Shown here: in pieces, positions 8,877-64,000 of the stretch
Numbering within the stretch: position 1 is the stretch's first letter
How the letters are laid out: each line of letters begins with the position of its first letter
Assembly (NCBI RefSeq): GCF_963675165.1
Contig: NC_087377.1
Location: 9,875,122 to 9,939,121, forward strand
DNA from: Halichondria panicea
Lineage: Eukaryota > Porifera > Demospongiae > Suberitida > Halichondriidae
DNA: 64,000 bases
Reading direction: 5' to 3'
The notes under the pieces: generated by a model
The model's input: only the letters and a program-made list of their open reading frames with translations
Database searches by the model: none
What the model was told of the DNA's origin: nothing
Position numbers and translations under genes: made by a program

Positions 8877-8893
8877 TCCAATATACACACCAG

Positions 8894-9334
8894 ATTCTAC
8901 TACTGCGGCTATTTATGGTGGTGCTGTTGGTGAGATACTGGTGTTAGTGTGTCTTATTGGTATCTGCTTGATTGCCCTACTCTTACTGAGGAAAAAGCTA
9001 TCTAGTGAAGAACAAATAGCTGCTCCACTTTATGAGGAAGTAGGTCTTTCAGGAAATGACATTCAACTCGAGCCCAATGGTGCATATGGAAAGGTATACA
9101 TGTGCACTCATTACAATGTAAATTTGATTATTTTGAAAATGGTACACATGTTTCACAACACGTACCGCATGCACGCAGGCTGTTAGATGCTCCAAGGGTA
9201 TTCAACTACAATCTAACCAGGCTTATGAACTAGTGAGTTATTTTACTGTACCTTGTATAGATCTGATAATTATTGTTACTCAGGATGCACTCAATTACAA
9301 GCTCATCAAAGGATATGATTTTAACCAGACGTAG
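8894..9334 (+). pseudogene. Orphan receptor transmembrane/tail cassette A
   Basis: There are three exons: 8894-9093 (TM plus start of tail), 9179-9232 and 9284-9334 (stop TAG). Splice signals and phases (1, 0, 0) match the other plus-strand receptors. The tail carries LYEEV, NGAYG, NQAYEL and LNYKLI tyrosine motifs and ends YDFNQT. No signal peptide, Ig or FN3 exons lie upstream, so the cassette has lost its ectodomain. In the TM segment a Glu codon (GAG) stands where copy B has Val (GTG), which puts a charge in the membrane. I read it as a relic of a duplication rather than a working gene. Confidence 0.65.
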
Positions 9335-10440
9335 AAAGTCATATATATAGAACTGTTGCAGTAGCTTGAGATACTAGTTGATTCATACTATAACAACTGA
9401 ACTCATTGTAGAATCAATGATCAATGATACATTGATCATGGTTGCAGTTAACAAAAGATGCATGCTAATTCATCTGTTGGATTATTCATTTTACCTTAAA
9501 AGGATGTCACATTACTTTGTGCACAGTTTTTGTGTAGAGGTATCAATAGTTCAACACTCCTCTATACTCTTGCTAATAAGGTCTCAAAAATACAATTCAC
9601 TTTTTTGTAAATTCTGAACACCACTCTGCTTCAATTTCTATAAACTTCCCTGCTGTTGTGCAGCAGATTTTCCAGCTTCTTGCCAGGAGGAGGTACGACA
9701 GGCATGGTGTAGCTCAGCAATTAGCCACTGATTGAACTCAGCAATAACGTTGAATGTGGGCGGATATAATTAGTGGTCTGTGGCCTAGTTTACCATAATT
9801 TCTGTTTCACTGGTTGTAGTAACTCGCAAATAATGTTCAGCTTATAAAAAATAACTGATTGAACCATGACATACACTCAGAGAGTTGCTCAAATACAAAA
9901 CAGCACGTACTTTAATTACTAGTGTATAGATGAATCGGGAACACAGTCGCTTTATAGGACAATGATATTAAACTATGTATCTATGGCTCATGCTCCTATA
10001 ATTGAGCATGCACAGTATTGTGATATTGTATTCTGAACAGTTAACTGTAGCTATACTTATAATGCTCTCGTAATCGTATATAGTATAGGCATGACGCTAT
10101 AATACAGTTTTAGCAATGTTTCTTTATTCAGTATCATCACACATTTTCAGAAGGTTTTCTAGAGACGCCGAGACATGCACTATATCCAAACCACATCACA
10201 TTATACCAGCAATGAGCTGTGCATTTGCAGGCAATTCATTACTTACAATCGTTGTATGAATTGCTTGAAAGTTATAGTGTAGGTATAGTCTTCTACGTGT
10301 ATAAAGAAGAATCCCGAAAAAATTTTACTGGCTGTTTTTTGCTTCAAATCTTTTCGTTTGTACGAGTACCTATGTCAAAGACAGAAATTGTTCTCGTCAA
10401 AGCCAGAAAATTGATGCCTATTATCCCACCATTATTCTCA

Positions 10441-12960: not shown

Positions 12961-15734
12961 ATGGAGATACTAGCACTAAAGCTGTTTTTTGTCATCTGCT
13001 TATCAAGAGTGGAACTGTCTACTCAAGTTGTTCCAGGTATTTCATCCAACAAATCAAGATTGATTTAGCTACAGTGCATAAAAAATAGATTATGTGTAGA
13101 TCTTCCAAGGGTCTATAATTTTATTCTGCAATACACGTTTGTTTTGCAGAAGTACTGGATGGCCCAGTGACACAGACTGTCCCTGTGACCCAGTATGAAG
13201 CCCAGTTCACCTGTCGTGCTCGAGCCTCTGCCGTATTCTGGTACATCAATGGCGAAACACTCTTTAACAATATTCCCAGCTGGATAATACTGTACGACGA
13301 TATACATGACTTTCCTAATGTTGAGGTGACGAGACGAATCGGTGTGAGAACTCAAGGACGTAATCGGACGAAGATCGAGTGTCTTGCTACAGGCTCTGAT
13401 CAGGCCACTGTTAGATCTGAACCACCTGTATTTCTCTATATTGTCGGTAAGTACTGCATGCATGCATGTATCATAGTGATTATCAGTTCAGCCAGCACTG
13501 TTGTTCTGCTAACCGGTATCCATGCATATATACACGTGTATACTACCTCATAATCATAGAGGACATGCAGTAAATGTCTCAATAATATCCCCTACAGATG
13601 TTCTCAATGCCCCTGTCACTGAGCTAGTTACGGTCAACACAACAGCTTTAAGGGTATCCTGGTTTGAGCCGTTTGCTCACACTGGTTTTCCTATTCTCAA
13701 CTACACTCTAATCATTCGAAGCACTGCTGACCACTCAGCACCCCTCTACAATGCCTCACTGAGTGCCCTGGAGTATGTGTTAACCACGGACAGTGTTCAC
13801 AGAGATTGCCACAATATAACGTTTGAGGTCATTGCCACGAACAGTATAGGACCTAGTGCTGCAGGTGTCGCCATTGGTGGATTTCCAATATGTGAGTCAA
13901 TTTTTATGCTGGTGTCATTGTATTAACGAGTATATCCAACAATGTACCTCCCTCACACGCACAAGCCACCAATGCTGCATGCACTGCACAAGCCGGGAAA
14001 ACTAGAAGGCTAAATTATTTTATATCCCGTTGCTATGTTGTTGCCAAGTGCAATATGAAGCATATTGCACTGCTGAAAAGTCATATTGCACTGCTGAAAA
14101 GTCATATTGCACTGACCACAAAACGCCCCTCTGGCATAATTAAATTAAATATTGTACCATGAGAAATAATAAGTATCAAAGTAAGTCCAGCCATGCATGA
14201 ATGTTCAGCACTGCTGGAGTTTCTTCTTTGCAACCATGCAGGTTTTAAAATCGTCCCAGGCTCATTTTGTGAAGATTCTGTGATCCTAGGCCTAGTCCTC
14301 CACTTCTTGATGCACGGTCAATTCTGGCTTCATCATAGCATGCACTAGAAGCGGCTCTTTTTGCAGGGGGCTTGAGCTGTTTTGCAGCAGTGTAGAGGCG
14401 AGCTTCTTTGGCTTGGTTGTGATACCGAGGATAGTGCTAGTGGAGGGGGCCGGGGCTGTTCGAGCAGCAGTTACACTGAGTAGTATAGTGGGGTGTGGCT
14501 GTTTCTTCGCAGCAGTAAATGGGCTGGGGCTGTTTCTTTGCAGCAGTAGAGGGGTGGGGCTATTTTGCAGCACCAGAAGTGGGGTGGGGCTGTTTTGCAG
14601 TGGTTTCAGCGTTGGAACTACAACAATTTTGTGTCAAGCCATTCGTCTGTCATGCCAATCTTATACGCTGCATATACTGGCGTCTAGGAGAGAGAAGAGA
14701 TGGAGCTGTGTCTAGAGTTGTCTTTGTCATCTTTTTGTGCAGTTTATATTGTGTTACTAAGACAGTATTATGTTGCTATGCCCTCGGGATATAAACTAGT
14801 TATTACACGTGCACTCGGGATGCATGGAATATATTGCACTCAGCCCTCGGGGCTTACGCCCTCGTGCTTCAGTGCAATATATTCCATACATCCCTCGTGC
14901 CCGTGTTATAACTATAACATAGTTACTGTACTGCATGCATGGTTCTCAGTCTGTTTATAATGTATTAGGCATGCATAATCTTCCGACTATAAGGTGTTAT
15001 ATAGATATTAATAGCTATAGTGCATAATCGACAGTGGTCCAGCTATAGGACAAGCATGGGAATTCTCCGTGGTTAATTGTACCATCGTTGTGCAGGATGC
15101 TGATACTGTGTTTTGGTGTTTCAAATACTCCAAACCCCCTTGTGTACATGTACAATGTTTATCTCTGGCACTTTCATTTTGAGTGAATTGATTCAAGGGT
15201 ATCTCACTAAGTTGATTACTGCATGCAAAGCTAATATTATTGTGCTCTCTCGTACAGTCATACAATTTTTATCTGCCAGGGTTTTTTCAAAAGTTGTGTT
15301 TTTTTTACAGTTCTTGGGGACTTTCTGCTCCCTCCTGTTGTCGTGATTACCTTCACAGCAGACTTGACCCCCATCATTAACGTCATATTTAAGGTGAATT
15401 TTACAATCATATACACGCACACTGAAATCTTAATTCGTATACATATACAAGATATATGCCGTTCAATGGAATCAAAATTAATTTCAATGCTTCATTGTGT
15501 ATACATAATCATGTGTGTCTGTTTACTTATAGTTTACTGTTTCTAAAATAAAAAAAATGCAGCACATTAATTGTTTTGCACACAGCCTCCAACAGTGTGC
15601 TGGTTTCAAGACGCCAGTTATGAACTGAGAATCCTGGATGTCTCAACTCAAGCCCTAAGTCTTTCCACTAGAATTGGAAGTTACCGTGGCGGTGGCATAG
15701 CAACTATATCGGAAGCGTATAATGATATATATAC
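12961..15734 (+). pseudogene. Receptor R0: signal peptide, Ig-like, FN3, split FN3 (truncated)
   Basis: Exons are 12961-13036 (signal peptide), 13150-13446 (Ig-like, Cys pair in FTCRA and ECLAT), 13598-13891 (FN3, with SWFEPF and NYTLIIRS strands), 15311-15393 and from 15586 (two halves of a second FN3, phase 0 between them). Phases agree with R1 and R2, so the gene model is sound through exon 4. Exon 5 is cut at about 15734, where a 16-bp-arm hairpin and foreign repeat begin, before the FN3 domain is complete. The four-cysteine module is absent, and the next family exon is the TM cassette at 17526. The protein would be a cell-surface receptor; in this haplotype it appears broken. Confidence 0.65.
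14021..14912 (+). mobile_element. Left copy of ~850-bp inverted pair inside R0
   Basis: It starts TATATCCCGTTGCTATGTTG and continues through repeated CATATTGCACTG units. Imperfect tandem GGGGTGGGGCTGTTTTGCAG units follow, then a block to a hairpin (GGAATATATTGCACT... at 14806-14905). The whole block recurs in reverse at 16545-17371. Open frames inside it follow the tandem repeat and are not genes. Confidence 0.75.
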
Positions 15735-17525: not shown

Positions 17526-17984
17526 ATTCTACTACTGCGGCTATTTATGGTGGTGCTGTTGGTGTGATACTGGTGTTAGTGTGTCTTATTGGTATCTGCT
17601 TGATTGCCCTACTCTTACTGAGGAAAAAGCTATCTAGTGAAGAACAAATAGCTGCTCCACTTTATGAGGAAGTAGGTCTTTCAGGAAATGACATTCAACT
17701 CGAGCCCAATGATGCATATGGAAAGGTATATATACATGTGCACTCATTACAATGTAAATTTGATTATTTTGTTAAAATGGTACACATGTTTCACAACACG
17801 TACCGCATGCACGCAGGCTGTTAGATGCTCCAAGGGTATTCAAGTACAATCTAACCAGGCTTATGAACTAGTGAGTTATTTTACTGTACCTTGTATAGAT
17901 CTGATAATTATTGTTACTCAGGATGCACTCAATTACAACCTCATCAAGGGATGTGGGATTTTAACCAGACGTAGAAAGTCATAA
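17526..17984 (+). pseudogene. Receptor transmembrane/tail cassette B (3' end of R0)
   Basis: Exons are 17526-17725, 17817-17870 and 17922-17984. The first has an uncharged TM segment (GGAVGVILVLVCLIGICLIA) followed by RKK and the motifs LYEEV and NDAYG. The second gives NQAYEL. The third gives LNYNLI and, through a small indel relative to copy A, a different end rich in Arg. The exons are intact, but R0's ectodomain is broken to the left, so whether a product is made is unclear. Confidence 0.65.
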
Positions 17985-19213: not shown

Positions 19214-20372
19214 ATGATAATTATGACTGAGGCAGATTGATACAAAATAGTACATGCAGTCTTGTACCATGATGTGCTCTAACACTAAGGAATCCATTGA
19301 AACTCTCAGGATTGTATAATTATGAATACGTATGACGGTTCTTGTATGTATAGTTAAATGAACAACATCATTATTGTAAGTGACAATATCAAAACAAGCA
19401 TTGAAATTAAACGATCTAATCAAGTTCTTCTCACATGACCATATATACTTAGGCCTGGTCGGATTCATTGCATGGGAGGGCGGACCACCTGAATGTAATA
19501 CCAAGGATTAAAAAATGCAGACTTATTCGTATACTAATAAGCCACTTGTTCATAAACCTGATTACAATCCAGTTAAATGTCTCGTGTTAAAATCACTTTA
19601 ATCGTATTGTTAATTATGGGTTATCATTCATTTAACGGGGACATTTTTCTCACCTGTCCATAAGCACTATTCGACTCTAGTTGAATGTCTGTTGCAATAG
19701 TGGTAATTTCATCGTACAATGGGCTAGCCGTGGCTTTCTGGTTCTCACTAGTTTCCGTTGAGAGATTTTGCCTCTTTCTCTTGACAATCAATGCCACAAC
19801 CAGGACGAGTACAGTAAAACACACCAGCACACCACCAATACTACCCACAACCACACCGACTATAGGCCCAATTATGGAAACACCTGCAGATGGAGCTGCA
19901 TAAAGGAATGACACAGCTATATAATTATACAACCTATAGATCTGTTGCCTGTTCCCATTCACATTTAAAAAGTTGAAAGTATAAAAAAGTATACGATTTT
20001 AACTTTTAAAATGCATTCGACAATAACTTTCAATTCATATTACAATAGCAACCGTCATAAGACGAGCTAATTGGATTTATAGAATAAAACACCTATAACT
20101 GACATTTTACAACTCACCGTAAGTTTGCGGCACACACATGATTTCCTCAGGCTCAGTGCTCCAGATTCCAGCATTAGATGGTGTTGGGTCCAGTCAGTGA
20201 GAGTCCATTGTCACACTGGTAAGTCAGCATTGTTCCCTCCAACACTGTCTCATTCAACCTCTCATAGTCGACTATAGTGCCGTTGGATGGCTCCTCAGGT
20301 AGAGAGCAATTCACTGTTATGGAACAAAAGGTCATGATATCACAAAAATAAAGGAACTGAAGATGATTTTAC

Positions 20373-20579
20373 CTGGTCTCTCTCTACACACCAAGCTCCC
20401 AGGATTCTCCACCCACTCTCCCCTACCACCCACATCAGTGCATGTGTTGGTCCTCACATCAAGGGGGAACAGTCTCTGGTCACAGCGATAGGTGACCTGT
20501 GAACGTAGTGGAAAGGGTGGTGTTCCACCATTGATATCCACACTGCCTCTGTATGGTGTAACAGGGTGGCCACAGGTGA
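20373..20579 (-). pseudogene. CCP (sushi) exon 1 of receptor B
   Basis: Phase 1-1 exon with Cys in VTCGHP, YRCDQRL, NTCTDVG and SLVCRE, the four-cysteine pattern of a sushi domain, with Trp in GEWVENPG before the last. Intact in itself. Confidence 0.75.
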
Positions 20580-20685
20580 CTGGGGGGATATAATTATGAG
20601 GTCACCAATAGAAACTGTACACATAATTTAAACGTACGTTGCCATACGTAAGTTCCTCCGTGTGTACGTGTACAGATTGCAGAAC

Positions 20686-43007: not shown

Positions 43008-43008
<1 letters not shown>

Positions 43009-46805: not shown

Positions 46806-46844
46806 TGTTTAAAGCACCTAACTGCATGATATTGTGCAACTCAC

Positions 46845-46934
46845 CTTCAGTTGGTGGCACACACATGATTGTCTCAGGCTCAGTGCTCCAGACTCCAGCA
46901 TTAGTGCACGTGATGGTGTTGTGTGCAGTCAGTG
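46845..46934 (-). pseudogene. CCP2 exon fragment
   Basis: It reads NTITCTNAGVWSTEPETIMC and on to a GTGAG donor, the last third of the sushi exon seen at 20118-20313 and 56403-56608. This piece keeps the correct frame, which helps define the lesions in the other two. It is cut at its 5' side by repeat sequence. Confidence 0.7.
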
Positions 46935-47604: not shown

Positions 47605-48463
47605 GTAACGGTAAGAAAATAAAAATTGGTCCAATATAGAGCTGACTTAAACTATGTAACATGTACCTAACATCATTCATTTTGTATGGTGAAATTAATC
47701 TTTAAGTATTACAAGGACATATAATTATGAGGGTGTACACGCATGTACCGTAATTACGACTCCTCCATAATTTATCCGTACTCAGTTTTATCCTCATCTT
47801 ATATTGTAAGGCAGTTTCCCAATACTCATGCAGCAGACTGAACTATAATTATAGCTATATTTAATAGTGGTTATTTTCGGAAGTCAGACAATTTTTAATG
47901 AGTGATCAGTTTGTGGAATATATTTTCGTTGCTGCATGCACTGTACGTAACGGTAGTCAATGATCGCTTCATTTGTGGGTAAAATATTTGTATTCAGGGA
48001 TTGGATTCAACCACAAAAACTATGAAGCCCCTCAAAAATTATTGTAACGCTTCAACTTCCGTACTATAAAGAAAAATCGACCTGAGAAGGTTGTATCTGA
48101 CCGTTTAGCTATGTTTGTTCAACAATTTTTGTGGAGGATTGCTAACCCTCGAAAACAGCGAAAATTAAGCGCCTTTGGTATACTATTATAATTACTAAAC
48201 GGTTGGATGCAACGTCATTGACAGACCGTATATATAGCGTGAAATTTATTCCACAAAATGTCTTTAGAGGCACTCCACGAAAGTTAAGTGAGCTTTTTGT
48301 GCCGTATATATGTTCTGTGTATAAACTGTCCACTGTTGTGGTCACGGGTCACTTGTATAATTATAGTGCCTTGCAATCCAGCAGCAATGGTTCTGCATTC
48401 CTTGTATCATGCATAACTACATACTTTCATTAAAAAGTGGTTTTTATCCAATATACGTACCAG

Positions 48464-48647
48464 ATTCTCCAGATTCTACTATTGCGGCTATTTGGTGTTA
48501 GTGTGTCTTATTGGTATCGTCTTGATTGCCTTACTCTTACTGAGGAAAAAGCTATCTAGTGAAGAACAAATAGCTGCTCCAATTTACGAGGAAGTAGGTC
48601 TTTCAGGAAATGACATTCAACTCGAGTCCAATGATGCATATGGAAAG
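48464..48647 (+). pseudogene. R1 exon 8, TM exon with 25-bp deletion
   Basis: Compared with 17526-17725 a 25-base block is missing after GCGGCTATTT, so the frame meets TAG after 12 codons. A 9-base duplication (ATTCTCCAG) at the acceptor gives a second usable AG. Confidence 0.8.
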
Positions 48648-50683: not shown

Positions 50684-50983
50684 CAGTAGAACCTCCATTA
50701 TCCGGCCCTCCATTATCCGGAACCTCCATTATCCGGCTTGGCAGTTTTCTTTTTATCAGATTAAATAATTCAGAAAATGGGTGTGTCCCTCAAATGCGTA
50801 TGCGCGTAGCAGCTGTTACCATGGAGACATGCCTGCTTATCTTTTGTGCTTGCGCAGATAACCATGTGGCACTGCTGTTTATCAATAAAGTGGGTGGATC
50901 AAGGCGTGGTTTATCTATTCGATTATCCGGCATATCCGGCCTGCTTCTGGAACCAAGGTGTCCGGATAATCGAGGTTCTACTG
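50684..50983. mobile_element. Complete TA-MITE with Tigger/pogo-like ends
   Basis: 300 bases, starting CAGTAGAACCTCCATTATCC and ending in its reverse complement with one mismatch, flanked by TA (50682-50683 and 50984-50985). Such CAGT-starting ends are usual for pogo/Tigger-group elements. The left side repeats CTCCATTATCCGG three times. Confidence 0.75.
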
Positions 50984-51082
50984 TAATGATAATTATGACT
51001 GAGGCAGATTGATACAAAATAGTACATGCAGTCTTGTACCATGATGTGCTCTAACACTAAGGAATACATTGAAACTCTCAGG

Positions 51083-51553
51083 ATACTCATCCCATGTACT
51101 CTCCAGGGGTGTACCATGCAGGGGGTACATGGCTGTAGTGTCAGTCTGAAGCCTATCTTTTAAGGACCCTCTCTTTTAAAGAAATTTACTGTGACAAAAA
51201 TTGTGGAAAAGTACAAAAATGTGCGGGTGAAGTTGTAAATGTGGTTTGTCAAGTACAAGCACATCACACAAAATGTACACAGTGCCAATGCACCGCAGGG
51301 ATCAAAGAGTGTTTATTACTTACTACAGAGGTGGATCCAGGAAAAATTGAAGGGGGGCTCCAAACTAACGAGTACACAGTGCAAGTAGTGAAAATCGTGT
51401 GCAGCGCAAATTTTTTGTGGTGATGCCCACTTCTGGTCACACGTTGTGCAGTAAGACTAGGAAAATCCCATTCTCAGCCATTATAGTGTTGTTCCCGGCC
51501 TGTTGATTGTGCATGTTTAACATGTAAACACGTTAGTTTGCGTATGACACTTG
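51083..51553. other. Extra segment in copy C, absent from copy B
   Basis: Copy B runs straight from CTCAGGAT to TTGTATAATTATGAA; here about 470 bases intervene. They include a TGTTGTTCCCGGCCTGTTGA block also seen at 55560. Probably an insertion; borders are not clear. Confidence 0.5.
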
Positions 51554-51695
51554 TATAATTATGAATACGTATGACGGTTCTTGTATGTATATAGTTAAAT
51601 GAACAACATCATTATTGTAAGTGACAATATCAAAAAACAAGCATTGAAATTAAACGATCTAATCAAGTTCTTCTCACATGACCATAATTATATAC

Positions 51696-52147
51696 TTAGG
51701 CCTGGTTGGATTGCATGGGAGGGCGGTCCACCTGAATGTAATACCAAGGATTGAAAAATGCAGACTTATTCGTATACTAGTAAGCTAGCCACTTGTTCAT
51801 AAGCCTGATTACAATCCAGTTAAATGTCTCGTGTTAAAATCACTTTAATCGTATTGTTAATAATTATTATGGGTTATCATTTATTTAACGGGGACATTTT
51901 TCTCACCTGTCCATAAGCGCTATTCGACTCTAGTTGAATGTCTGTTGCAATAGTGGTAATTTCATCGTACAATGGGCTAGCCGTGGCTTTCTGGTTCTCA
52001 CTAGTTTCCATTGAGAGATTTTGCCTCTTTCTCCTGACAATCAATGCCACAACCTGACGAGTACAGTAAAACACACCAGCACACCACCAATACTACCCAC
52101 AGTCACACCAACTATAGGCCCAATTATGGAAACAGCTACAGATGGAG
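51696..52147 (-). pseudogene. Minus-strand receptor tail C (TM exon frameshifted)
   Basis: The TM exon 51907-52147 matches 19654-19895, but one base is missing after GTACTCGTC, so the TM run shifts into a stop. The downstream exon 51696-51731 gives 11 residues ending SNQA and TAA. No CCP exon remains to the right. Confidence 0.75.
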
Positions 52148-52814
52148 CTGCATAAAGGAATGACACAGCTATATAATTATACAACCTATAGATCTGTTGC
52201 CTGTTTCCATTCACATTTAAAAAATTGAAAGTATAAAAAAGTATACGATTTTAACTTTTAAAATGCATTCGACAATAACTTAACATTTTACACTTCACAC
52301 CGTCAAGTAAATTGGAGGAAAGTTCTCCCAAATGAATGGATCCCTCGTTGCCATCAATTATTACTGTTTTATCAAATGCCTTCATTTGATGTACGTGCGA
52401 ATATATACTACAATGTGCCAGTTGATCATCCTCCTCCTCTGTCACAAATTACTGCAATATAACTGACCACAACTATTTATAAATTGGACATTGATAATCA
52501 TGAGCATTATATTCATGGCTAACAGCTATTAATACGTGTCTAATTATAATTATGATGCATGTTATTGCTGCACTTGGTCGAATTTCAATAGAAATGTACA
52601 ACAAAAAATGACATGAGCGGTGAACAATGCATGATTGTTTATAGTCGTGCGAGTGTTAAATTAATGCAGTCATTGGAAATCGATCAACACAAAATTAGGT
52701 TAGGCGACAACATGCAGTACTTAATGTATACTTCAACATTAATTTGATGGCCATACACCTTTCGTTGTTATGTTAGCAAAAAAACCCTGGGCCCATACGG
52801 TATATACCATGCAG
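52148..52814. other. Non-coding
   Basis: The first 120 bases match the intron next to the TM exon of receptor B. The rest shows no exon or repeat border. Confidence 0.4.
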
Positions 52815-52952
52815 TCACTGACATATTTGACCCACTTGAATGTTACAACAGTAATGTCATTCCTTATGAGGGCATTGTACACAGCTTCCTTCACTACGTA
52901 TCCAAAGGAACCGTCTACAACGCAATTGCATTTGGAGTCACAGGATTGTCAG
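52815..52952 (+). CDS. Candidate isolated coding exon, unidentified
   Basis: Between an acceptor ATGCAG and a possible donor TCAGGTTC the frame reads about 45 codons of protein-like sequence (FDPLECYNSNVIPYEG, then HSFLHYVSKGTVYNAIAFG). Composition is unlike the surrounding AT-rich DNA. I do not recognise the family and see no partner exon. Confidence 0.35.
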
Positions 52953-53228
52953 GTTCAACATGTACTTCTATATATACGTACAGGGACACCTTCGTCAATA
53001 AGTACACTTGTTTTTCAGAGTACGTTAAATTAATTAAAGCGATTAGTTAGGGACGTACCCAAGGCGACAGAGGACACTAATACTGCAATCTGATTGTTAA
53101 AGGTAGTGTTCTATCCAACATAGAAAATCATGTAGATCTACTTACTTAGATAATCACTTAGAAAATCATGTAGCAAAGATTAGATAAGTCTGATTGGCTA
53201 GAGACTCATGGTTGCTATGATCTAGACC

Positions 53229-53382
53229 AGAGGAGGTACGACAGGCGCGGTGCAGCTCAAGCAATTAGCCTCTGATTGAACAATAATTATCCGCCCACGC
53301 ACAGCCCACGTCGTATGTTTTTGTTGAGAGTAATCAGAGGCTAATTTTACTTGAGCTGCACGGTGCCTGTCGGACCTCCTCT
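53229..53382. mobile_element. MITE with ~48-bp TIRs (AGAGGAGGTACGACAGGC)
   Basis: The left end AGAGGAGGTACGACAGGC, followed by GGTGCAGCTCAAGCAATTAG, is mirrored at the right. A half-copy sits at about 9687-9767 and 18325-18405 but is missing from copy C at 49680. Confidence 0.7.
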
Positions 53383-53585
53383 GTATCTAGACACTGTTTA
53401 GGAAGTTTGGAATTCCACATGATTTAGAAGCCCTCAGGGCTAGTAGAACCCTCACTACGTTCGGGATACTACAACCAGCCCTTTGGGCTACAGTGTCTAA
53501 CTATTTATAGACATTCCTTTTTTTGTTAGCGTAATCCCTATTTGGAACTCCCTTCCCTAAATGTTATCAGACAGTAGTCCATTTG

Positions 53586-54426
53586 TACGGTGGCCCTGAG
53601 CGTTACTAGCTATTAGTTCACCTTAACTACTTGATAGTTCACCTACCTTAGCTACTTGATAGTTCGCCTACCTTAGCTACTTGATAGTTGACCTACCTTC
53701 GCTGCTTGATAGTTTACCTACCTTAGCTACTTCGCAGTTGACCTTTGAACTGTATGTTAATTCTATTTAATGCTGCTGTAGCCATACTGTACATAGCGAC
53801 TAGAGATCAATATAATGAGAGCTACATATGCACGTATACAGGTACTGAGGATTATCCAACAGCAATACAAGACTAGAGTATCGCACCAGAACCATTGTAT
53901 AGTACAGAATTTAGGAGATATAAACGTGAACAACTTGAACTGCATGTATTGTATTAGTCTGGGGCCAGACCTTTTCTCAGAGGGGGAGGGGGAAGAGAAG
54001 AGAAAGGTCTCTTAATCCTAGCTCTATTTGATTTTGTCCCAAGCTATTAGACTAGCTAGTATTGTGAATAACATGTAACTTCCAAATGAATCAAGTGTGG
54101 TACTCTCCTCTTGCATTGCTGTTACCCATAGGGTAGAACTAACCGGCTGCAGATAATCCTCAGTACCTGTATATATAACTCATTTATATTGAGTCGCATG
54201 GCTACAGCAGCAACATACAGTTCAAAGGTCAACTTCGAAGTAGCTAAGGTAGGTGAACTATCAAGTATAGCTAAGGTTGTTGAACTATCAAGTAAGTAGC
54301 TAAGGTAGGCGAACTATCAAGTTGAACTATCAAGTAGCTAAGGTAGGAAAACTATCAAGTAGCTAAGGTAGGTGAAAACTATCAAGTAGCTAAGGTGAAC
54401 TACTAGTAGCGCTCAGGGCCACCGTA
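53586..54426. mobile_element. Foldback transposon with minisatellite-bearing arms, CATTTG duplication
   Basis: Ends TACGGTGGCCCTGAGCG and its exact complement, flanked by CATTTG on both sides (53580-53585 and 54427-54432). The left arm holds four to five units of a 26-base repeat (CTACCTTAGCTACTTGATAGTT) and the right arm five or more in reverse. No transposase is seen. Confidence 0.85.
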
Positions 54427-54432
54427 CATTTG

Positions 54433-54718
54433 CTTTCAAATTATCCTTGTCATAACATAATTTTTCAGCTTCTTGTATCAAGCACATTTAACCTTTTTTT
54501 GTTGCTGTTGGGGATTGACTTCATTATTAGCTTCATTTATAGGTATCTTGTCAGTCCTGTATGCTTCCTTTTGCATCGAACATTCATAAAGAAAAAACTA
54601 AGCTGCTTAGTAGACTATTGTAGTGCCGTGTACATAAATGGCTTGCTTCTTTGTCTTTCAAAATAATCTATGTCCAGAAGGACTATCTCTTAGTGTACAA
54701 CTCATGCAGTCCTACATG
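54433..54718. other. Non-coding
   Basis: A 78-codon hydrophobic open frame has no splice or family support. No gene is called. Confidence 0.4.
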
Positions 54719-54720
54719 TA

Positions 54721-54815
54721 GCCTCGGTCCCAGGCCGATTTTTTTTTAATAGAACAAAGTTGAAAAATAGGCGACCTAGCGTTCAATTGGAGACGGATCG
54801 GCCTGGGGTCGAGGC
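54721..54815. mobile_element. Very short MITE, ~19-bp TIRs, TA duplication
   Basis: GCCTCGGTCCCAGGCCGAT and its inverse with two mismatches, TA at 54719-54720 and 54816-54817. It is 95 bases long. The same end motif recurs in the repeats at 35.5, 39.1, 40.1 and 41.2 kb. Confidence 0.75.
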
Positions 54816-54817
54816 TA

Positions 54818-55433
54818 TCCAATATCAACATTGACAAGTTGCTCCTTTGTTGTTGTACGATTTGACCGGTAAAGGGATATAGTATCTAGTGTCAGAAGAA
54901 AATTCAGACATTGTGTCTGTTTGTCATGAATCATCATACGGAGAGCATTATAACACAGCATAATTATACTGACCATGTTCAATTGATAATCAATGGGGGG
55001 GGACCCATAGCAGCTTAAGTTAAAATTTCTCTGAACTTCCTCTTTTCAACCAATGAACATAATTATCTCAGATGTTTGCAAGTACATTTCAGTGTTCGTA
55101 GCTAAATATGATGTTAAATATGTTGACACCACTGCATGTACATCACACACACCCTCTGCAGGGTCAGAATCTAAACCCCCATATTTTTTGGCTACACATG
55201 CACCCCCTATTACATGCAAGTGCATCACAGTAGATCTAGTTTAATACATATGTTATAGTTGTGACACATGCACGAGTGCCACATGGGATATATTATTGGC
55301 TCAGTAGTGACTTAGGCCCGAGGGCCGCAGGCCTCGAGGGAAGGGGGGAAGGATCACCCCTACCCCAATAATGATTATAATTATATATGACTGCTATAAT
55401 TATAAGTAAAATTGCTATGGTGACTAGTGATTA
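54818..55433. other. Non-coding, with a GC-rich palindromic patch
   Basis: CCCGAGGGCCGCAGGCCTCGAGGG near 55317-55340 is a partial palindrome. No gene. Confidence 0.4.
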
Positions 55434-55523
55434 TCTTTGTATGGACCTGTTCCTTTTTGAATCTTATACAAGCTGTTAATTCCTTTTTGATAAGATTCAA
55501 AAAGGAACAGGTCCATACAAAGA
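55434..55523. repeat. Perfect hairpin, 33-bp arms
   Basis: 55434-55466 and 55491-55523 are exact reverse complements around a 24-base loop. Confidence 0.9.
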
Positions 55524-55525
55524 AT

Positions 55526-55577
55526 CAACAGGCCGGGAACAACACTACTATAGTATAGTGTTGTTCCCGGCCTGTTG
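55526..55577. repeat. Perfect hairpin, 22-bp arms
   Basis: CAACAGGCCGGGAACAACAC plus two bases, 8-base loop, and the exact complement, two bases after the 33-bp hairpin. One arm recurs at about 51488-51512. Confidence 0.9.
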
Positions 55578-55696
55578 ACGATTTAACCATGCATACATAA
55601 AACAAACTATAACTGTGTTTGCATGATAATGCAAACATCATCCTAAGCTCACAACAGACAATGTGACTATCAAAACAAGCATTGAAATGCAAACAA

Positions 55697-55765
55697 TCAA
55701 GTTTTTCTCACTTGACCATAATTATATTCATAAGCTTGGTTGGATTGCATGGGAGGGCGGATCAC
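55697..55765 (-). pseudogene. Receptor D last tail exon, complete motif
   Basis: It gives RPPMQSNQAYEYNYGQ and runs to TGA. It preserves the NQAY motif that copies B and C have lost to early stops. Confidence 0.65.
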
Positions 55766-56703
55766 CTGAATGTAATTCCATACTTATATTCGTATATTTG
55801 TATTATATAAGTTATACTTGTTCATAATATAAGCCTGATTAGAATCCAGTTGAATATCTCGTGTTAAAGTCATACTGGCAATCTTAATCATGTATGGGGT
55901 TATGGGATTCTTCATTTGATTAGGGGTCTCACCTGTCCATAAGCGCTATTCGACTCTAGTTGAATGTCTGTTCCAATAGTAGTAATTTCATCGTACAATG
56001 AGCTAGCCGGTGCTTTCTGGTTCTCACTAGTTTCCGTTGAGAGCTTTAGTCTCTTTCTCCTGACAATCAACACCACAATCAGATTCTCATGATGAGTTTT
56101 TATATCACGACGACCCCTTACGAAATCATGCCTCGAGGCTACGTGACCGTGTAATAAAATAATATAACACGGAGGGGACTGTATGACTCTTATTTACACC
56201 CTGCATGCATGTAGTAACATTGACAACGTGATATAAACAACCTAGTCTGTTGCCTGTTCCCATTCGCATATAAAAAGTTAAAAGTGTAAAAAAATTACAC
56301 GATTTTAACTTAAAAATAATATACTCGACAGTATAATTATATTTTCAATTCATACTACAATAGCAACCGTGCAGTTGAAAGCACCTATATTTTACAACTC
56401 ACCGTAAGGTAGCACACACACGATTGTCTCAGGCTCAGTGCTCCAGGCCAGACTCCAGCATTAGTGCAAGTGATGGTGTTGGGTACAGTCAGTAAGAGTC
56501 CATTGTAACACTGGTAAGTCAGCACTGTTCCCTCCAACACTGTCTCGTTCAACATCTCATAGCCAACTATAGTTTCGTTGGAAGGCTCCTTGAGTAAAGA
56601 GCAGTTTACTGTATTGGAACAAAAAGTACACTTAGTCTAGTACTGTTCAGATTACAGTACAGATTCTGAATCAAAAACATGCAAAGAAGAGAAAAATGGT
56701 TAC

Positions 56704-56919
56704 CTGGCCTCTCCCTGCACACCAAGCTCCCAGGATTCTCCACCCACTCTCCCCTACAACCCACATCAGTGCATGTGCTGGTCCTCACATCAGGGGGGAA
56801 CAGTCTTTCGTCACAGCAATAGGTGACCTGTGAACCTAATGAGAAGGGTGGTGTCCCACCACTGATGTCCACACTACCTCTGGGTGGTACAGCAGGAGAA
56901 CCACAAGTTACTGGGGGAT
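56704..56919 (-). pseudogene. Receptor D second CCP exon
   Basis: Open sushi exon with four canonical Cys plus two extra (YCCDERL and VGCRGEW) where receptor B has Arg and Gly. Confidence 0.7.
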
Positions 56920-58246
56920 CTAAGTATATCCAATAGAAGCTGTCCACATAATTATAGTCAGCATGTACCTGTAACTGGATCGACTGCTGCAGTCAAATGT
57001 CCCAAGGTCAGGAGACCACCCAATACTGCTGCACATGTTGAAGTCTTCACTTCATTCTCTCCACTACAAGTATAAAGGTGAGTATGGATCCACTAATGGT
57101 GACAGGTATTGGTGATGATCACACCAGCAGCAGTAGACGGTGTGGGGCACTCAACTGCAAGGAGGACAAGGTATACACGTTTGTTAAAACCATGCATAAA
57201 TTTAAATGGCATATACTTAGATCCACAATTGGACGTTTTTTCTCATTCCAGCACAATTGTCAGCTCTGATGGTCACATTGTAAGGATTGTTATAGGAGAC
57301 AATGACTTGTGCCGAGGTGGTATCCACGGTGACTGGTGAGCCGGAGAGGGGTGGTGATGAAATTGTAAGGACATAGCTGACAGGCACACCACTAGTAGAG
57401 GAGGAGTCTCATCCAGAGTGATATTAGAGGAGCTATGAGTGGAGAACACTCTTGTGTTCAGTGGAGGGGAGGGTGGATCTGTGTAAATCAATTGTTCAAC
57501 ATTGTCATTTATTGAACAAAGAACTCACCAGCCACAGTGACATTGTGAGCTCTCTCCCACACACAACACCATCCTCTACAATGGAGGCCTCAGACAGTGA
57601 AGTGAGAGTGGCAGTGAGCATTCCTCTACTGGAGTCAGTGAGAACACCACGGAATGCTGGAGTACCTTGTGTACTATCAGTGTTGCTGGTACTTAAAGCA
57701 ATCCTGAACACTTGGCCTTGTGGTGGAGTGATGTCCCACAGTACAACGCTACCAGTAGAGTGCAGGTGAAGGTGGAAATGTCATTAGGACAGGCCACAGT
57801 GGGATTGGGTGTTAGTGTGGCTGCAAAATGTCTTTAATAATTAGTGACCCATAACTATTGCACTTAAACTAAATTAACCATCATTCTATAATTAATTATT
57901 AAAGCTAGCAAGATCTATAGTTCACCTACCTTCTACTTGCCATAAAGATACTAACAATACTAGTGTGACAGTAAACATATCTGATCTCTGCCCTGAGTGG
58001 TAATCATGCCAGTAACTGTGTATAGATCATCAAATTTGATTAAACACTGAGATCCGCCCTGTTGCAAAAATTTAATGTGGGTGTAGATCTAGACTTTCAC
58101 CGGAAACAAATAAAGTTTTAATTATGGAGTTTAAATGCCCAGCGACTCACACTGTACAAGTTCTGCAAAAGTGGTATGATAAAGTTGGTTTTGTATCTAG
58201 TTTAGTTATATATATATATCCTCCAAGTTACTTTAGTGAACTGACT

Positions 58247-61200
58247 ATGGAGTTTGGATATTGTAAGCCTAAAGCAGCAGTCAGCAATACTCTAACCATT
58301 CTTGCTCTGGTTCTCTTTTGTGTCTTTGCTGCTGCAAAAGATGAAGGTAAAAAGCACAACTATATCCACTTGCACTGCACTGAGCAATAAGCTAACTGTG
58401 AATGCAAAATAATATATTTTCACTGCCTATCATTCTGTTCATTATCTTGCATGCAGCAAATGTGCTCAGTTTTCAAGCAGAGAGAGACCTAATACCTGTT
58501 GGTCGACCTATGAGCTATAGCTGCAAAGTGAAGGGACGTGCAGTGTGGGAGTTTGGTACTTATTACTTCAACACAGCCTCCAGCGACTTTGTGGGAAATA
58601 GAAGCAATATCATTGAAGGAGTGAACATAACTGACTTTACTGATGCAAGTGGCAATCATCTTTCCAAATTATTTCTTTCTTCATCCATTGTCCAAAGTCT
58701 GAATGACACAGATATGGCCTGTGGTGCAACAATAAGTCGGAATATAAAACCAACTGAAAACGAGAAGATTAGAGTTAAAGTTTTTAGTAAGTTCTCAAGT
58801 TTATTGCACAGCAAAAAACAACAACTTCATCTCCCCCTTCCACAGGTTCCCCTACTTCCCCTGGAAATCTGAGAGTGGTGTCAGAGAGGCAGAAAGAGGT
58901 CACTCTGATGTGGGAACCTTCGTTCTTGGCATTCAACATCTCCCCTCAGTACAAAGTGTATGTGGATGGTGTCATCAAAGCTACGACGGAACAAAATTAT
59001 TTTGTGTTCTCAAAACTGGAGCACTCGTGTGATTCTCATCAGATACGAGTGGAAGCGTACAATGAAGTCGGCAGTAACACCTCTGAGCACATCGAAGTGG
59101 TCTTACCTGCAGGTGTGTGTGTATATGGGATGCCGTTTGTGTCAAGAACACCATGTGAAAACTGCATGTTCAATGTGCATAAAAATCCACGACTATACTG
59201 TATCGGTCTCCTGATTTACTAAATCCGGCTCACGCTATACTAAACTGGTCTCATGCCTTAGTAAATCGAAGGTTCCACAACGTGAGACCGCTTTAGGAAA
59301 TCAGGAGACCGGTTTAGTAAAGTGTGAGCCCGCTTTAGTAAAGGTGATAAGGCCACTCCAAGCCATACATTCTGGTCATAGTACTTTAGTCAAGAGGATA
59401 GAGGATGCGGATGGGAGGGTTATTAGACTTAACCATTTTAGAAAAAATGTTGTGCGATCTTACATGCAAGCATCATGTGATGTAATAACAAACACTTAAT
59501 AGTACCAAGGGCGTATGAAGAGAAGAGGGCATGCATGCAACTACAATCTATCATTATATTACAAATGGGCAGGGGCTTATGTCTAAAAATAGTAAAGAAT
59601 GCATTGCACGTGCACTTTATACTAGCCTTCTTTTACTCTTTCCCTAGTGGGCGATTGGCTAAATCATGGCTAAATATAGCATATCCTGCTGACTCATCAA
59701 TAATATGACGCATACACAGTATACACATTGTAAGTTGCATGCCCTCTTCTCTTCATACGCCCTTGATAGTACGTACTGATTCAGTTCAGTCACAATAAAA
59801 TTCATGAGAAATAAACAGGATGACCAGAAACTATTAAATACACATAATTTATTTAGAAGTCATAAAAATGAGCTTTTGTTGGTTAATCTACTGACTGCTA
59901 GCTCAGTGGAAAGTATTCAGTTAGATTTAGATTCTATTGTGTAAGCCAGCTTATAAGACAGCCTTAAACTTAGGGCTACTCCAAGCCACCCATGCACACT
60001 GTGACAGTCCATATAAATTATGTGATATGTGCATATAATTATAAAGACAACACAAAATAATAGTGCGTACTGATATAAACTTGTGAGCCTGCCCATAGAA
60101 CGTATAACGCTTTCATACACTGAATTAATCATTAAGCTATACACTCAGGAAACAGAATTGGCGATATTCCGTGCGTTCCGTGAAATAATGTGGCCATTTC
60201 TGACGGAAGGAATACTTTTAAGGACACCTATAATTTTATTATCCTGTCAAAAAATTGTCTCGTTTTACTTGCATGGTGCTTTACTTATCCCTTTGTGTTA
60301 GTGATTAGTCTCATTGCATAATATCCTCTCCATGGTGACGACCTTTGTGATACCTTCACTCCTCTATATGCACAGTTCCTGAGGTGGGTGCACTGAGTGA
60401 CAGCATCTCTACCGATATTACAAAGAGTGGTGCTCAAGTTCAATTCACAGTGTCCTTTAACGTGAGTTTGATTAATAATTTTGTCAGTGACTCCATACTA
60501 AACATTTTATGCATGCGTGAGTGGCATGGTCTATGTTGTGCTTTGGAGGAATAATGTGGGAATAATATCCAATTTGAAAATTTTTTCTTCAACAAAGAGG
60601 CCAGAGAGGTATGCTAAAGGATGTAATTATTGCTTGATACAGCTAGTAAGACTTACATTTTTAAAATTAGGTTGAGGGTGTGCCCAGAAAGACTGTCAAC
60701 AAGCAAGGCAGTCCTTCAAAGCGACCTGCTGAAGTGTCATACCGGCAAAACTTTTGGCTAATAATATAGCTTTAACGCTCATTGTGGTCAGATATCTATA
60801 CTACTGTTGTAAATACAGTGCATGCCTGGGTAATAATTATCAATATCAGCCAGATATATATATCTGGATAATACCCAGGGTGCAGACTGAAGCACCACCC
60901 ACCACCCTATTAGCTTGCATTGCTTTTTAACAAACTGAAGTGCATTAATGCGTGGCGAATCACAATGCAGAATGCAATTTATGTTATTGATCCTGAATTT
61001 GATCCTTGAAATTACTACACAATCACCATAAGTATAATTATTATGTCATGCATGCCCTGTGTGTACTGCTAATACAACTCGAGCCCATGCATGCAGTTGT
61101 ATTAGCTGCATGTACATCCCTCTTGCATGAGTAATAACCTATACTTATAGTGTAGCCCGTGTACAGCTATCAAAAACATGCAACTCCAAAAATGATGTCT

Positions 61201-63828
61201 TTTGCACCCATACAGCAAGCCGTGTCATGTCCCGCTCACCCGGTAACCAACTACACGGTGACGCTCACCTCAAGTATGTCTACCCCTATCACTCGGACAG
61301 TGGCCATACCCCCTGAAGACAGCGTCTCTATCACAGTGGGGGGTCTGAATGACAACACACTCTACACTTACCAGGTGCACGCAAACAATGTCATTGGAAG
61401 TGCCTCCACAGCAATGAAAACATTCTGTAAGTGCACATAATATATTTACTAGGTATTATATTATGCATTCACAATAAAAGCTTTGCGCAGAGTTATATTT
61501 AAGGGAGAAAGAAGAAGAGTAGAGTGAGATCTGAATATATATGGATGTGGTCTCTCCAGAACTCTCTGATTTCTCTTTCTAAGAGCAACAAGACGCTTGG
61601 TCCTATCTTAGGTGTTGTTGTTGGTTTTGTCCATGGGAGACTTTTTATATATAGCTACGGCCTAGCTAGCTATAGCATATAGTCACCGCTCAGTTCAGTC
61701 TAGCTTATATTTTATTACAATGCCAATAGTAGATCAGTTTGGAGGTCAGGGGGTATACTCTCATTGTCCCCACTTTAACACTGATAAATATTATTGTTTG
61801 CAGCAACGTAGAATAGAACACATATACACAGAGCACAGTACAGAACCTTATATTATATACAAAGCTAAACTATAGATGTTACCAACTAAATACAGTTCTA
61901 ACTCTAGCTAGATTGTTATAGGTCAATACAGATACATTACAGCTACTTCTAGATAGTTCCAGTGGATACTACACTACTGTTGCATGTAACACGTACAGTA
62001 CATTCCTGGGTATACTGTATACGAGTAGAAAAGTTTGAGGTGTTTTTAATTTCGGGTTTTTCGTGGGTGGCTGCAGAAGATTTTAAAACCCATGGAAGGC
62101 TTCGTATGTGCATGCGAGATAAGTGCCACACCCTAACTCCACGATATTTACTACCCGCGAAATTTTCTAAATATTGAATTGCACGAAATTTTACACCCAT
62201 ACGGTATTGGTATAATACTCATGCAGGATATGTTGCTTTTTACCTAAAGCACCACCCACCTCCGTATAGATTGCATTGCTTTTATAAGAAACTTTATTGT
62301 GGTTGTTTGCAGTACGCATTTCTGAGGATGCATGTATTCGTAGCGAATTACATGCAGTCATGTAGAATCTTGCAACCTGATTGGTTCATTACATAATGAC
62401 CCTTGAGATTATTAATAACATAATTATAATGAATCTCATTAACCGGGCAACCAGTTAGACGCATAGAGGCTCAAATGTCATTGATGCTACTTGGAAACCA
62501 GTATGACGCAGGACTATTATGCAATCAGTAATAAATAGGTTATTATATGCCTCGGTTGCGCCATGCGCAGCGGTATAGTGTGTGTGTAGAGTGCTACAGC
62601 TGCTCAGATATAGATGAAGTGAAAGTAAGAGTTTCTATATAGGCTTCTGGACTCAGTGCAATTTGTGGAATTGCAAGATAATGCTTTGCATGTTCTTGAG
62701 TTATGGCTAGTTTTGTCTGAGTGAGAAAAAGCTGCAAAGCCATGCACACTGTTTCTCATTTTAAATAGCTAATTATGGACTTTGAACTTTCGGCAGCCTT
62801 TTTAGCAACAACCAAAGTCGATCATTTCCCAATGCAGTATAATACCGTTTTTTATAGTAGCTTCATTGCTATAAAGATTTGGCGCCTCCACCAAAGAATC
62901 AGCACCCGCGATGCTTTTATTACTTATGCAAGAGGGATGTACAGCTAATATACAACTCGAGAGTTTTATTAGCAGTACAGCACAAGGGCATGAGTAAAAA
63001 CCTTTATTGCTCATTGTGTCAAGACATCAAAGGCATTTGCACTAGTTGTAAATACAGTATCACCCAGGATGTAGTCAATATAAATGGATGATGATATTGA
63101 TGAGCCTCGATATCTGAACACCTGGTATCCCCACCTCATCAGAAACCACGTGGACCCTTAATGCGTAGATGTTTGCTATGAATATCATTATGTGGCAAAT
63201 CTTTCATCCGGATAATGGAGAAATCAGATGATCGGGGTTCGAATAATCAAGGCTCAACTGTACCCACCATGTAAACTAAATCACAACCCTTCACCTATAG
63301 TTAGCTTAAGAAACTAGAGTGCATTGATGCCTGGCGAATCCTAATGCAGCTGTCCATAGACTGTAGTCCATAAGGTAATGATCCTTGAAATTATTACACA
63401 ATCAACAATAAGTAGGTTATTACGTCATACCCTCGTGCTGCACTGCTAATATAACTCGAGCCCGAGCGACATAGCCCCTCAGGCTCGAGTTGTATTAGCT
63501 GTTTATCCCTCTTGCATGAATAATAACCTATACTAACATATATACGTATTCACTGCATGACCCACAAAAGAAACCCTTTTGCTATGAGAGACAGTTTTCT
63601 TTAGCCCTGTGAGATTTATAGAAAATAGTGCTGAACTGTAAATGTAAAGAAAGGTTTTCTGAATCTGTCAAAATTGCCATGTACATTTTATTTATCACTA
63701 CCCCCGGGCCGGGGCCCCTGCCACCAGATACTACTGATGTGCGCCGTGCCACTGCCATAGAGATGAATAATGACACACTGTTTCTGCACTGTGAGTTTTT
63801 GCTGGGGTCAAACGCACTTGGCTGTCAG
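58247..63828 (+). CDS. Receptor R2: signal peptide, Ig, FN3, FN3, start of four-Cys module (continues off right edge)
   Basis: Six exons: 58247-58346, 58457-58786, 58846-59112, 60376-60461, 61216-61426 and 63728-63828. All have GT/AG borders and consistent phases, giving 365 residues without a stop. The signal peptide has an LVLFCVFAAA core. Ig-like domain about residues 34-143, FN3 144-232, FN3 split by a phase-0 intron 233-331, then TTDVRRATAIE and FLHCEF of the four-cysteine module. Exon order and sequence follow R1 closely, so TM and tyrosine-motif tail exons should lie right of 64000. The fourth intron holds only repeats and short hairpins; the fifth holds an LTR fragment and MITEs. The best candidate for a working plus-strand receptor. 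Confidence 0.82.
58846..59112 (+). CDS. R2 exon 3, intact FN3 domain
   Basis: 267 bases, phase 1-1. SPTSPGNLRVVSERQKEV, LMWEPSF, YKVYVDGV and IRVEAYNEVGS give the full FN3 strand order. It is the intact reference for the broken R1 exon 3. Confidence 0.85.
59203..59345. repeat. Nested palindromic repeat in R2 intron
   Basis: GGTCTCCTGATTT and AAATCAGGAGACC, plus several ACTAAAC/GTTTAGT units, form an irregular foldback. Confidence 0.6.
61039..61140. mobile_element. MITE related to 63413-63530
   Basis: Shares CTGCTAATA(C/T)AACTCGAGCCC and GTTGTATTAGCTG with the copy at 63.4 kb. Confidence 0.5.
61768..61973 (-). mobile_element. Partial LTR, same family as 4833-5057
   Basis: About 200 bases match that LTR through its TATA region to GTGGATACTACA; the other terminus is diverged and no target duplication is seen. 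Confidence 0.6.
62547..62899. mobile_element. Interspersed TIR element, copy 4
   Basis: Starts ATGCCTCGG and ends CACCAAAGAAT, with the internal blocks of copies 1 and 2 but about 150 bases shorter. The ends no longer pair fully. Confidence 0.55.
63413..63530. mobile_element. MITE, TAGGTTATTA ends
   Basis: TAGGTTATTA at left and TAATAACCTA at right; inner AACTCGAGCC/GGCTCGAGTT pair. 118 bases, just left of the last R2 exon in the window. Confidence 0.65.
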
Positions 63829-64000
63829 GTGAGAGCACAAAACAATAGCTCAAATGAAATGTGCATTGCATAACTTGTATAATAATAGCTACCCTCGGTT
63901 GTACTATCATCTCATTGTGCGTTAAAAATGGATCTCAACTGCTTAGTTTATTCTTTAGCTCTAATTCTGGAGTCCTAAACGCTCGTTTGAGCACTTACTT

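Follow-up and report, generated by a model that had tools for sequence, protein, structure and literature searches.

A 64,000-nucleotide stretch of the Halichondria panicea genome (the window; positions 9,875,122-9,939,121 of contig NC_087377.1, hereafter C1) carries a cluster of receptor-like genes in which a distal immunoglobulin (Ig)-like domain is joined to FN3 domains, to CCP domains or a cysteine-bearing domain (X), to a transmembrane (TM) segment and to a short tail with tyrosine motifs. We consider it probable (roughly 0.55), from sequence comparison, that this window is the proximal flank of a very large complex of innate recognition receptors with two tail types on C1. Pieces of the window were compared by six-frame search, exons were mapped across 110-154 kb around it, and the genome searched comprised 131 Mb in 39 contigs. 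The genes in the window have spliceosomal introns and animal-type mixtures of domains. An original prediction had described at least seven related receptor genes or pieces here (A, R0, B, E, R1 with C, D and R2), most of them broken and with exon phases, a split FN3 and tail motifs in common. Six-frame comparison and exon mapping located every named piece; the pieces do not form a single family type with one architecture and one tail, and fall instead into two main architectures.

R2 exemplifies the first architecture. It is a seven-exon receptor gene with no stop in 495 codons, extends 3.5 kb beyond the window and encodes, in order, a signal peptide, the Ig-like domain, an FN3 domain (FN3a), a second FN3 split over two exons (FN3b), the X domain, likewise split over two exons, a TM segment and a tail reading YEEM...NDAYGK. 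The R2 Ig exon has five genome matches, all at C1:9.917-10.011 Mb, which are R1, R2, R3, R2d and R5, and the FN3b exon likewise has five, all in the same interval. The common exon phases and split FN3 that had been ascribed to the whole cluster are exact for R2, R2d, R3 and R5 (phases 1,1,0,1,0,1 at the six joints, with AG/GT at every exon junction read; R5 was read to exon 6 only). All seven exons are open in R2d and R3, and R5 is open in the six exons read, with a short and odd signal peptide. R1 and C are one gene on the R2 plan, now a pseudogene whose FN3a carries both a deletion and in-frame stops and whose TM exon also has a deletion. The valine assigned earlier to the tail motif (AYGKV or AYGQV) is the first codon past the GT donor, and the tail exons in the window therefore end at AYGK or AYGQ.

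R0, A and E are broken or partial. The R0 Ig exon has copies that are 99% and 97% identical at C1:10.111 and 10.154 Mb, and the R0 tail region (17509-19316) matches the region of A (8877-10680) at 98.1%; no ectodomain was found with the orphan TM-tail exon of A. In R0, A and a further locus, L023, the exon after the TM-tail exon is a small phase-0 exon that supplies a third tyrosine in the motif SNQAYEL; as read by eye, this exon has a stop just past the tyrosine in R3, and a stop and no tyrosine in R2. The X domain of E recurs twice with 96% identity, at C1:10.045 and at 10.059 Mb, and the first half of the second FN3 of E was not located. E and R2 had been called nearly intact: R2 is free of breaks, and E has one in-frame TGA in its Ig exon, ahead of the second cysteine. 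Repeats also lie among these genes, namely an inverted pair of about 0.9 kb (80%; 14020-14921 and 16543-17369) between the R0 ectodomain and the R0 tail, and a segment at 15731-16198 that recurs at 46334-46805 (95%) inside R1.

B, D, D' and U, the last a gene just upstream of the window, form the second type, with the order Ig-like, FN3, CCP1, CCP2, CCP3, TM and a YDEI-type tail. B is a 3' half only, and no match to the Ig or FN3 of its own type was found beside its CCP2-CCP3-TM-tail. The piece named D resolves into two things, D itself, whose reading frame is broken in Ig, in FN3 and in CCP1, and D', an orphan TM-tail exon. The view that most copies are broken, each in its own way, thus holds: R1 has stops and deletions, D has three broken domains, and A and D' are lone 3' exons. 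The Ig exon of U is open and the gene is broken at least in CCP2; within its single tail exon (C1:9,866,003-9,866,280), three PLYDEI units stand in tandem.

Part of the cluster lies in a segmental duplication. The stretch 43435-68046 aligns over 24,709 columns at 99.26% identity (73 mismatches, 23 gap openings) with a second copy starting at C1:9,969,566, 51 kb downstream. R1 and R3 have their 3' part in common inside this block, but their Ig exon is beyond its edge, in sequence matching at only 93%; the edge of the duplication falls inside the R1/R3 gene, and an ectodomain front has therefore been exchanged against a constant rear. The part of the previous interpretation that is supported is the birth and death of clustered type I receptors whose tails bear tyrosines. 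The family is not single-copy: there are five close copies, a duplicated block of 24.7 kb (99.3% identity) and at least 150 matches to a related tail exon on the same chromosome. A quite improbable alternative is that the window is mostly a graveyard in which only R2 matters, its copy number being partly an assembly effect in which two haplotypes were joined one behind the other. In favour of this, all of R1, A, B, D, D', R0 and E are broken or partial, and the near-identity of the R2 and R2d blocks could be a haplotype difference. However, there is no N between the block copies, the main complex is independent of the R2/R2d block, and R3 and R5 are too far from R2 to be its haplotypes because their synonymous divergence (dS) from R2 over exon 1 is 0.26-0.27. 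A mismatch cluster in exon 3 of R2 and R2d (4 of 86 bases) was considered as gene conversion and rejected, the densest 100 bp being matched in 169 of 2000 random placements, a rough control confined to one high-scoring segment pair.

The tail motif connects these genes to a far larger array on C1. In most receptors the tail has a tyrosine pair, Y-E/D-E-V/I/M followed after 13-14 residues by A-Y-G. The plus-strand tail of the window has 17 genome places, 16 of them on C1, and the minus-strand tail 29, of which 27 are on C1 (two of these at 16.5 Mb). A DNA pattern for I-[EQ]-L-x-x-N-x-A-Y-G gave 222 genome matches, and its reversed control gave 1; among the matches listed, 100 in number, every one falls on C1, with 12 between 9.31 and 9.99 Mb and 88 between 11.25 and 12.36 Mb. 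The TM-tail exon of locus L067 (YEEV...NQAYGPV) has at least 150 matches (150 scored of 309 candidates), all 150 at C1:11.25-14.93 Mb and only 2 with a stop. Including the pattern places there are at least 175 tails in this interval, 135 on the plus and 40 on the minus strand, with a median gap of 6.7 kb. L064 and L067 consist of Ig-like, FN3, two CCPs, TM and YEEV...NQAYGPV, and L060 and L063 have FN3 and three CCPs in the stretch read. One tail exon, in L065 (1387-1788, minus strand), contains three NQAYGPL units in tandem. At C1:16.5 Mb, the CCP repeats of L066 and L070 lead into YEEV...NEAYGQ tails, one of which has the YEEV unit twice, and the complex may extend further along C1 to this point. 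C1 itself is 18.1 Mb long, twice the next contig seen (8.6 Mb).

Interspersed with these tails are genes of a second tail type. Four loci, L028, L030, L033 and L034, were first reached via their TM segment. The tail of L030 is encoded by small in-frame exons with AG/GT borders, carrying GDYSEL, EGYSRV, LTYDEV, EGYSTM and PGYGQL, then by an exon with both VVYAAL and VTYATV; by alignment the tail-exon borders and frames of L028, L033 and L034 are as in L030, and the motifs were read in all four loci. The consensus of the immunoreceptor tyrosine-based inhibitory motif (ITIM) is [VILS]xYxx[LIV], which LTYDEV, VVYAAL and VTYATV of L030 satisfy, and all three are conserved in the other three loci. 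The last ITIM exon has 20 matches (from 23 candidates), all at C1:11.41-13.81 Mb, and 14 of the 20 are without a stop. Genes of the ITIM type lie, for instance, at C1:12.19 and 13.00 Mb. All scored matches of the L067-type and ITIM tail exons thus lie on C1, and because sister genes of the array carry canonical ITIMs, the immune-type reading is strengthened.

The two tail types lie downstream of related ectodomain exons. Pieces of U, B and D match L030 or L033 at 67-79% over the best-aligned Ig, FN3 and CCP2-3 pieces and at 49-67% over CCP1, broken D pieces being lower; these genes have ectodomain pieces like those of the ITIM type, yet YDEI-type tails. Scoring 150 of 223 candidates gave at least 111 matches to the Ig exon of L033, of which 109 lie on C1 and 2 on C6. 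For a proximity count we merged the 109 C1 rows to 104 exons, excluded the two on C6 and accepted a tail 0.5-3.5 kb downstream on the same strand, drawing on 150 L067-type exons, 37 further pattern places and the U tail. A YEEV-type tail followed 71 of the 104 Ig exons (median distance 1.7 kb) and an ITIM exon followed 5; the 28 with neither are an over-count, since the tail set came from the best 150 of 309 candidates and the pattern places listed. For the 53 Ig exons at least 60% identical to L033, the corresponding numbers were 34, 2 and 17. When the strand was flipped, 3 YEEV-type and no ITIM tails were counted, and when the Ig exons were moved by 20-200 kb (500 runs) the mean was 16.5 (maximum 28) for YEEV-type and 0.39 (maximum 3) for ITIM tails. 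By proximity, then, one cluster holds related ectodomains on two tails, with a canonical ITIM in one member class, as expected of paired receptors.

Divergence is graded along the ITIM-type genes, with identities of 36-67% in the distal Ig exon (3 pairs) and of 89-95% in the ITIM exon (5 pairs). The ratio of replacement to silent substitution rates (dN/dS) is 1.05 for the Ig exons of L030 and L034 (54 replacement, 17 silent differences) and 0.42-0.65 for the other ITIM-type Ig pairs, two of which have saturated dS. This gradient, seen in few pairs, would fit what recognition receptors tend to show. The R-type genes of the window behave differently. Pairwise Nei-Gojobori comparison of R1, R2, R3 and R5, which are paralogues and not alleles, gave dN/dS below 1 in every domain, with 0.07-0.22 for FN3a, 0.34-0.64 for FN3b and 0.15-0.21 for X (both where defined); in the TM-tail, R2 versus R3 gave 0.44. 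These purifying ratios would fit another explanation, that the genes are adhesion or tissue-patterning receptors expanded by drift without an immune role, their tails serving endocytosis or cytoskeletal linkage. FN3 and CCP are common adhesion modules, and dense clusters of FN3 exons occur elsewhere in the genome, at C4:4.38-4.43, C8:6.57-6.66, C3:6.68-6.72, C7:5.01 and C1:10.17 Mb (150 scored of 808 candidates). We nevertheless judge it unlikely in view of the canonical ITIMs on sisters with related ectodomains, the number of tail-exon matches and the excess of Ig-exon over tail divergence in the ITIM-type genes.

Several observations weigh against a two-tailed recognition complex. Ectodomains are assigned to tails here by their proximity, their strand and the conservation of exon borders. 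An L033-like Ig lies upstream of only 5 of the 20 ITIM exons, and only 2 ITIM-linked Igs are at least 60% identical to L033, one of them being L033 itself; because the counts beat the controls and yet so few such Igs exist, close ITIM/YEEV pairs are few, though real, among the ITIM exons. A search of 154 kb including the window for ITIM tail exons gave none up to an E value of 0.05, its short queries being weak for small exons. An activating partner with an immunoreceptor tyrosine-based activation motif (ITAM), a hemITAM or a charged TM segment was not found: YEEV-x13-14-YG departs from the ITAM consensus in its V, where that has L/I, and in the length of its spacer, and the TM segments of R2, R3, B, U and L067, read by eye, contain no charged residue. 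We therefore apply the term inhibitory to the ITIM tails on the strength of their canonical motifs, and activating to the YEEV/AYG tails more weakly, as a guess. Contrary to the earlier claim, the tail motif is also not common to all the genes, since the TM exon of E carries RYDEEKV without the YEEV...AYG pair, and the U tail has YDEI three times and no AYG. On C10 and C8, similar tails are attached to unlike ectodomains, which makes the tail a signalling module of wider occurrence. The long tails of L032 and L068 (C10:1.33 Mb) have NQAYG and several more tyrosine motifs, with no Pfam ectodomain call. Finally, dN/dS in the Ig part of the R-type genes is 0.18-0.38, within the range of the other domains; no diversifying selection was seen in the window Ig exon, and the lack of an Ig excess is evidence against recent diversification of these paralogues.

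The identity of the distal domain is a further point of this kind. No Ig family reached the Pfam cut-off in 40 open reading frames (ORFs), 20 of them from the window, where Ig had been predicted as the domain identity, and the best call outside the window was Ig_2 at E 0.035 in L030, below cut-off. When nine Ig-like exons were compared with three textbook Ig domains by hhalign the probability was only 8%, and for FN3 exons it was 0.5% against the same three Igs and 0.2% against the Ig-like exons. R2 had a weak single-domain antibody match (E 0.68), ranked under two unrelated PilQ matches. AlphaFold models of the R2 Ig exon (two-sequence alignment) and the E X domain (single sequence) had a mean predicted local distance difference test score of 37 and were discarded as unfit for a fold search. 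A C-x(7-9)-W...C pattern is visible in the Ig-like exons across subfamilies, and by this motif only we call the distal domain Ig-like, as a label for a putative Ig domain. Pfam supports FN3, and supports Sushi weakly in the window and clearly in relatives. In window ORFs, Pfam fn3 was called at 1.8e-5 (the ORF at 45250, just over the cut-off), 4.9e-5 and 0.0017, with the R0 FN3 exon at E 0.14 only, and Sushi at 0.0027 and 0.014, both below cut-off; relatives outside the window gave Sushi at 3.3e-9 and 7.1e-9 (over cut-off) and fn3 at 5.5e-6.

Taking the window as the flank of an innate recognition complex, we infer expression, tail phosphorylation, ligands, opposite signalling and an immune role along the following lines. 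The receptors would be single-pass cell-surface proteins with a distal Ig-like domain, FN3, then FN3-X or three CCPs, a TM segment and a short tail, and a ligand on a microbe or another cell would cluster them. The sequence pYEEI is preferred by SH2 domains of the Src family, and the YEEV-type tyrosine site is close to it; a Src-family kinase might phosphorylate this tyrosine, upon which SH2 proteins would be recruited. The downstream sisters, with related ectodomains and a tail of small phase-0 exons bearing about one YxxPhi tyrosine each, the last with two canonical ITIMs, would recruit SH2 phosphatases and so inhibit. Growth of the array, unequal crossing-over inside genes and exon-wise exchange of ectodomains and tails could diversify the receptors, giving related specificities with different outputs, as in vertebrate paired receptors.

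By analogy, such a complex would work like the vertebrate paired receptors (LILR/KIR, CEACAM, FcR-like, CD300), which are likewise clustered, with related ectodomains, differing tails, ITIMs in one set, and birth and death. Those families have smaller copy numbers; moreover, the ectodomains here have one Ig-like domain with FN3 and CCP, and the non-ITIM tail has the YEEV/AYG pair in place of a canonical ITAM or a charged TM segment. In its plan the complex resembles the Hydractinia allorecognition complex and the Botryllus FcoR genes. Alr ectodomains are built of V-set and I-set Ig domains, and to our knowledge no FN3 or CCP occurs in them, whereas the present genes have a single Ig-like domain, with FN3 and then CCP or X behind it. 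For Alr, polymorphism and homophily are reported, while the present likeness is one of architecture in a single assembly. Since the all-Ig ectodomain of Alr is absent here and the likeness is of architecture rather than homology or polymorphism, we do not assign the complex to any known system. Our literature searches, with most subscription journals outside their reach, found no paper describing such a complex.

An allorecognition role of the complex is possible. In a stronger form, this would be an allorecognition complex proper, in which polymorphic ectodomains bind self alleles to decide fusion or rejection and the two tails set the threshold. Clusters of Ig-type receptors, some with ITIM-bearing sisters, have parallels elsewhere. 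Hydractinia chromosome 3 has a cluster of 40 Alr and Alr-like Ig-type receptor genes, possible pseudogenes among them (PMC11876637; PMC11999971), and ITIM/ITAM-type motifs are reported in candidate allorecognition genes of Hydractinia and Botryllus (PMC12065747). The cluster described here likewise lies on one chromosome and has type I receptors in intact and broken copies. The FcoR proteins join Ig and sushi domains (a V Ig, one sushi and two C2 Igs), a TM segment and a long tail with ITIM/hemITAM or a lone YxxI/L/V, and their genes are clustered in the fuhc locus, each paired with a fester gene; no FN3 is described in the portion available (PMC12065747), and the likeness is architectural. 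That ITIM-type genes have diverged from one another in their distal Ig exon would also fit. We still find the stronger form rather improbable, as the window genes show no diversifying signal and innate recognition fits a large complex with many near-identical copies at least as well. The same source, a review, states that there is no conservation among the proteins put forward as allorecognition candidates in sponges, cnidarians and ascidians, and that signalling of the ITIM/ITAM type is where systems ranging from cnidarians to mammals converge (PMC12065747). The pattern-recognition repertoires of sponges (SRCR, FN3/Sushi and Ig-TIR genes) also use FN3, Sushi and Ig domains, and some of these genes respond to microbial patterns; in the part of the source available they are described as lists of domains, not as clustered genes with two tail types (PMC6208332).

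Coordinates of the receptor genes and other features are given in the Table. Outside the receptor genes, a long nested inverted repeat occupies 29555-30631, its 197-nt arms being 97% complementary; a probe of 501 bases taken from the repeat has 133 matches in the genome, among them a series on C7:1.85-2.89 Mb. The repeat is a mobile-element family, and the C7 series is an odd array.

Table. Features of the window and its immediate surroundings (positions in the window unless prefixed C1; E values from Pfam where so marked).
Feature	Position	Strand	Description
U	C1:9,866,003-9,867,926		gene just upstream of window, second type
Methyltransferase frame	930-1826	-	NNMT/PNMT/TEMT-type, 299 residues, 1.8e-45
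A	8894..9232	+	orphan TM-tail exon PLYEEV...NGAYGK 8894-9093; small exon SNQAYEL ~9179-9232
R0 ectodomain	13119..13923	+	Ig-like exon 13119-13550; FN3 exon 13513-13923
R0 tail	17526..17870	+	TM-tail exon PLYEEV...NDAYGK 17526-17725; small exon SNQAYEL 17817-17870
B	19627..20601	-	CCP2-CCP3-TM-tail, SPLYDEI...NSAYGQ; 3' half only
E	22681..27786	-	Ig-like, FN3, second half of an FN3, X, TM
Recombinase domain	31732-32340	+	YqaJ-like, 203 residues, repeat-rich stretch, 7.1e-10
Transposase frame	38063-39052	-	DDE_3, open, 330 residues, between E and R1, Pfam 2.8e-26
R1 (includes C)	42394..48647	+	seven-exon plan of R2, pseudogene
Segmental duplication block	43435..64000		continues to ~68046, patchily to ~72021
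CCP3 fragment	46819..46956	-	second gene type, antisense within R1 intron
D'	51880..52250	-	orphan B-type TM-tail exon, frame broken between TM and tail
D	55915..57827	-	Ig-like, FN3, CCP1-3, tail SSLYDEI...NSAYGQ, B type
R2 exon 1	58402..58786	+	signal peptide and Ig-like, open
R2 exon 2	58846..59112	+	FN3a
R2 exon 3	60376..60461	+	first part of split FN3b
R2 exon 4	61216..61426	+	second part of FN3b
R2 exon 5	63728..63828	+	first part of cysteine-bearing X domain
R2 exon 6	65490-65718	+	beyond window
R2 exon 7	67279-67484	+	TM and YEEM...NDAYGK, beyond window

A megabase complex in which related ectodomains stand beside ITIM or YEEV-type tails is a place to test the breadth of ITIM/ITAM logic, with R2 and R3 as unbroken, testable genes and a natural series of tail exchanges. 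A bolder proposal, which we hold to be doubtful, is that C1:9.87-14.93 Mb is a histocompatibility-like complex, about 5 Mb long, of an early-branching animal, with at least 150 Ig-like/FN3/CCP receptors that have the YEEV/AYG tail in common and about 20 sisters whose ITIM tails are exon cassettes, in which exon exchange sets activating and inhibitory outputs on related ectodomains. If true, this would place the ITIM-versus-activating logic of natural killer-type recognition near the root of animals and would provide a concrete candidate for self/non-self recognition at that depth.

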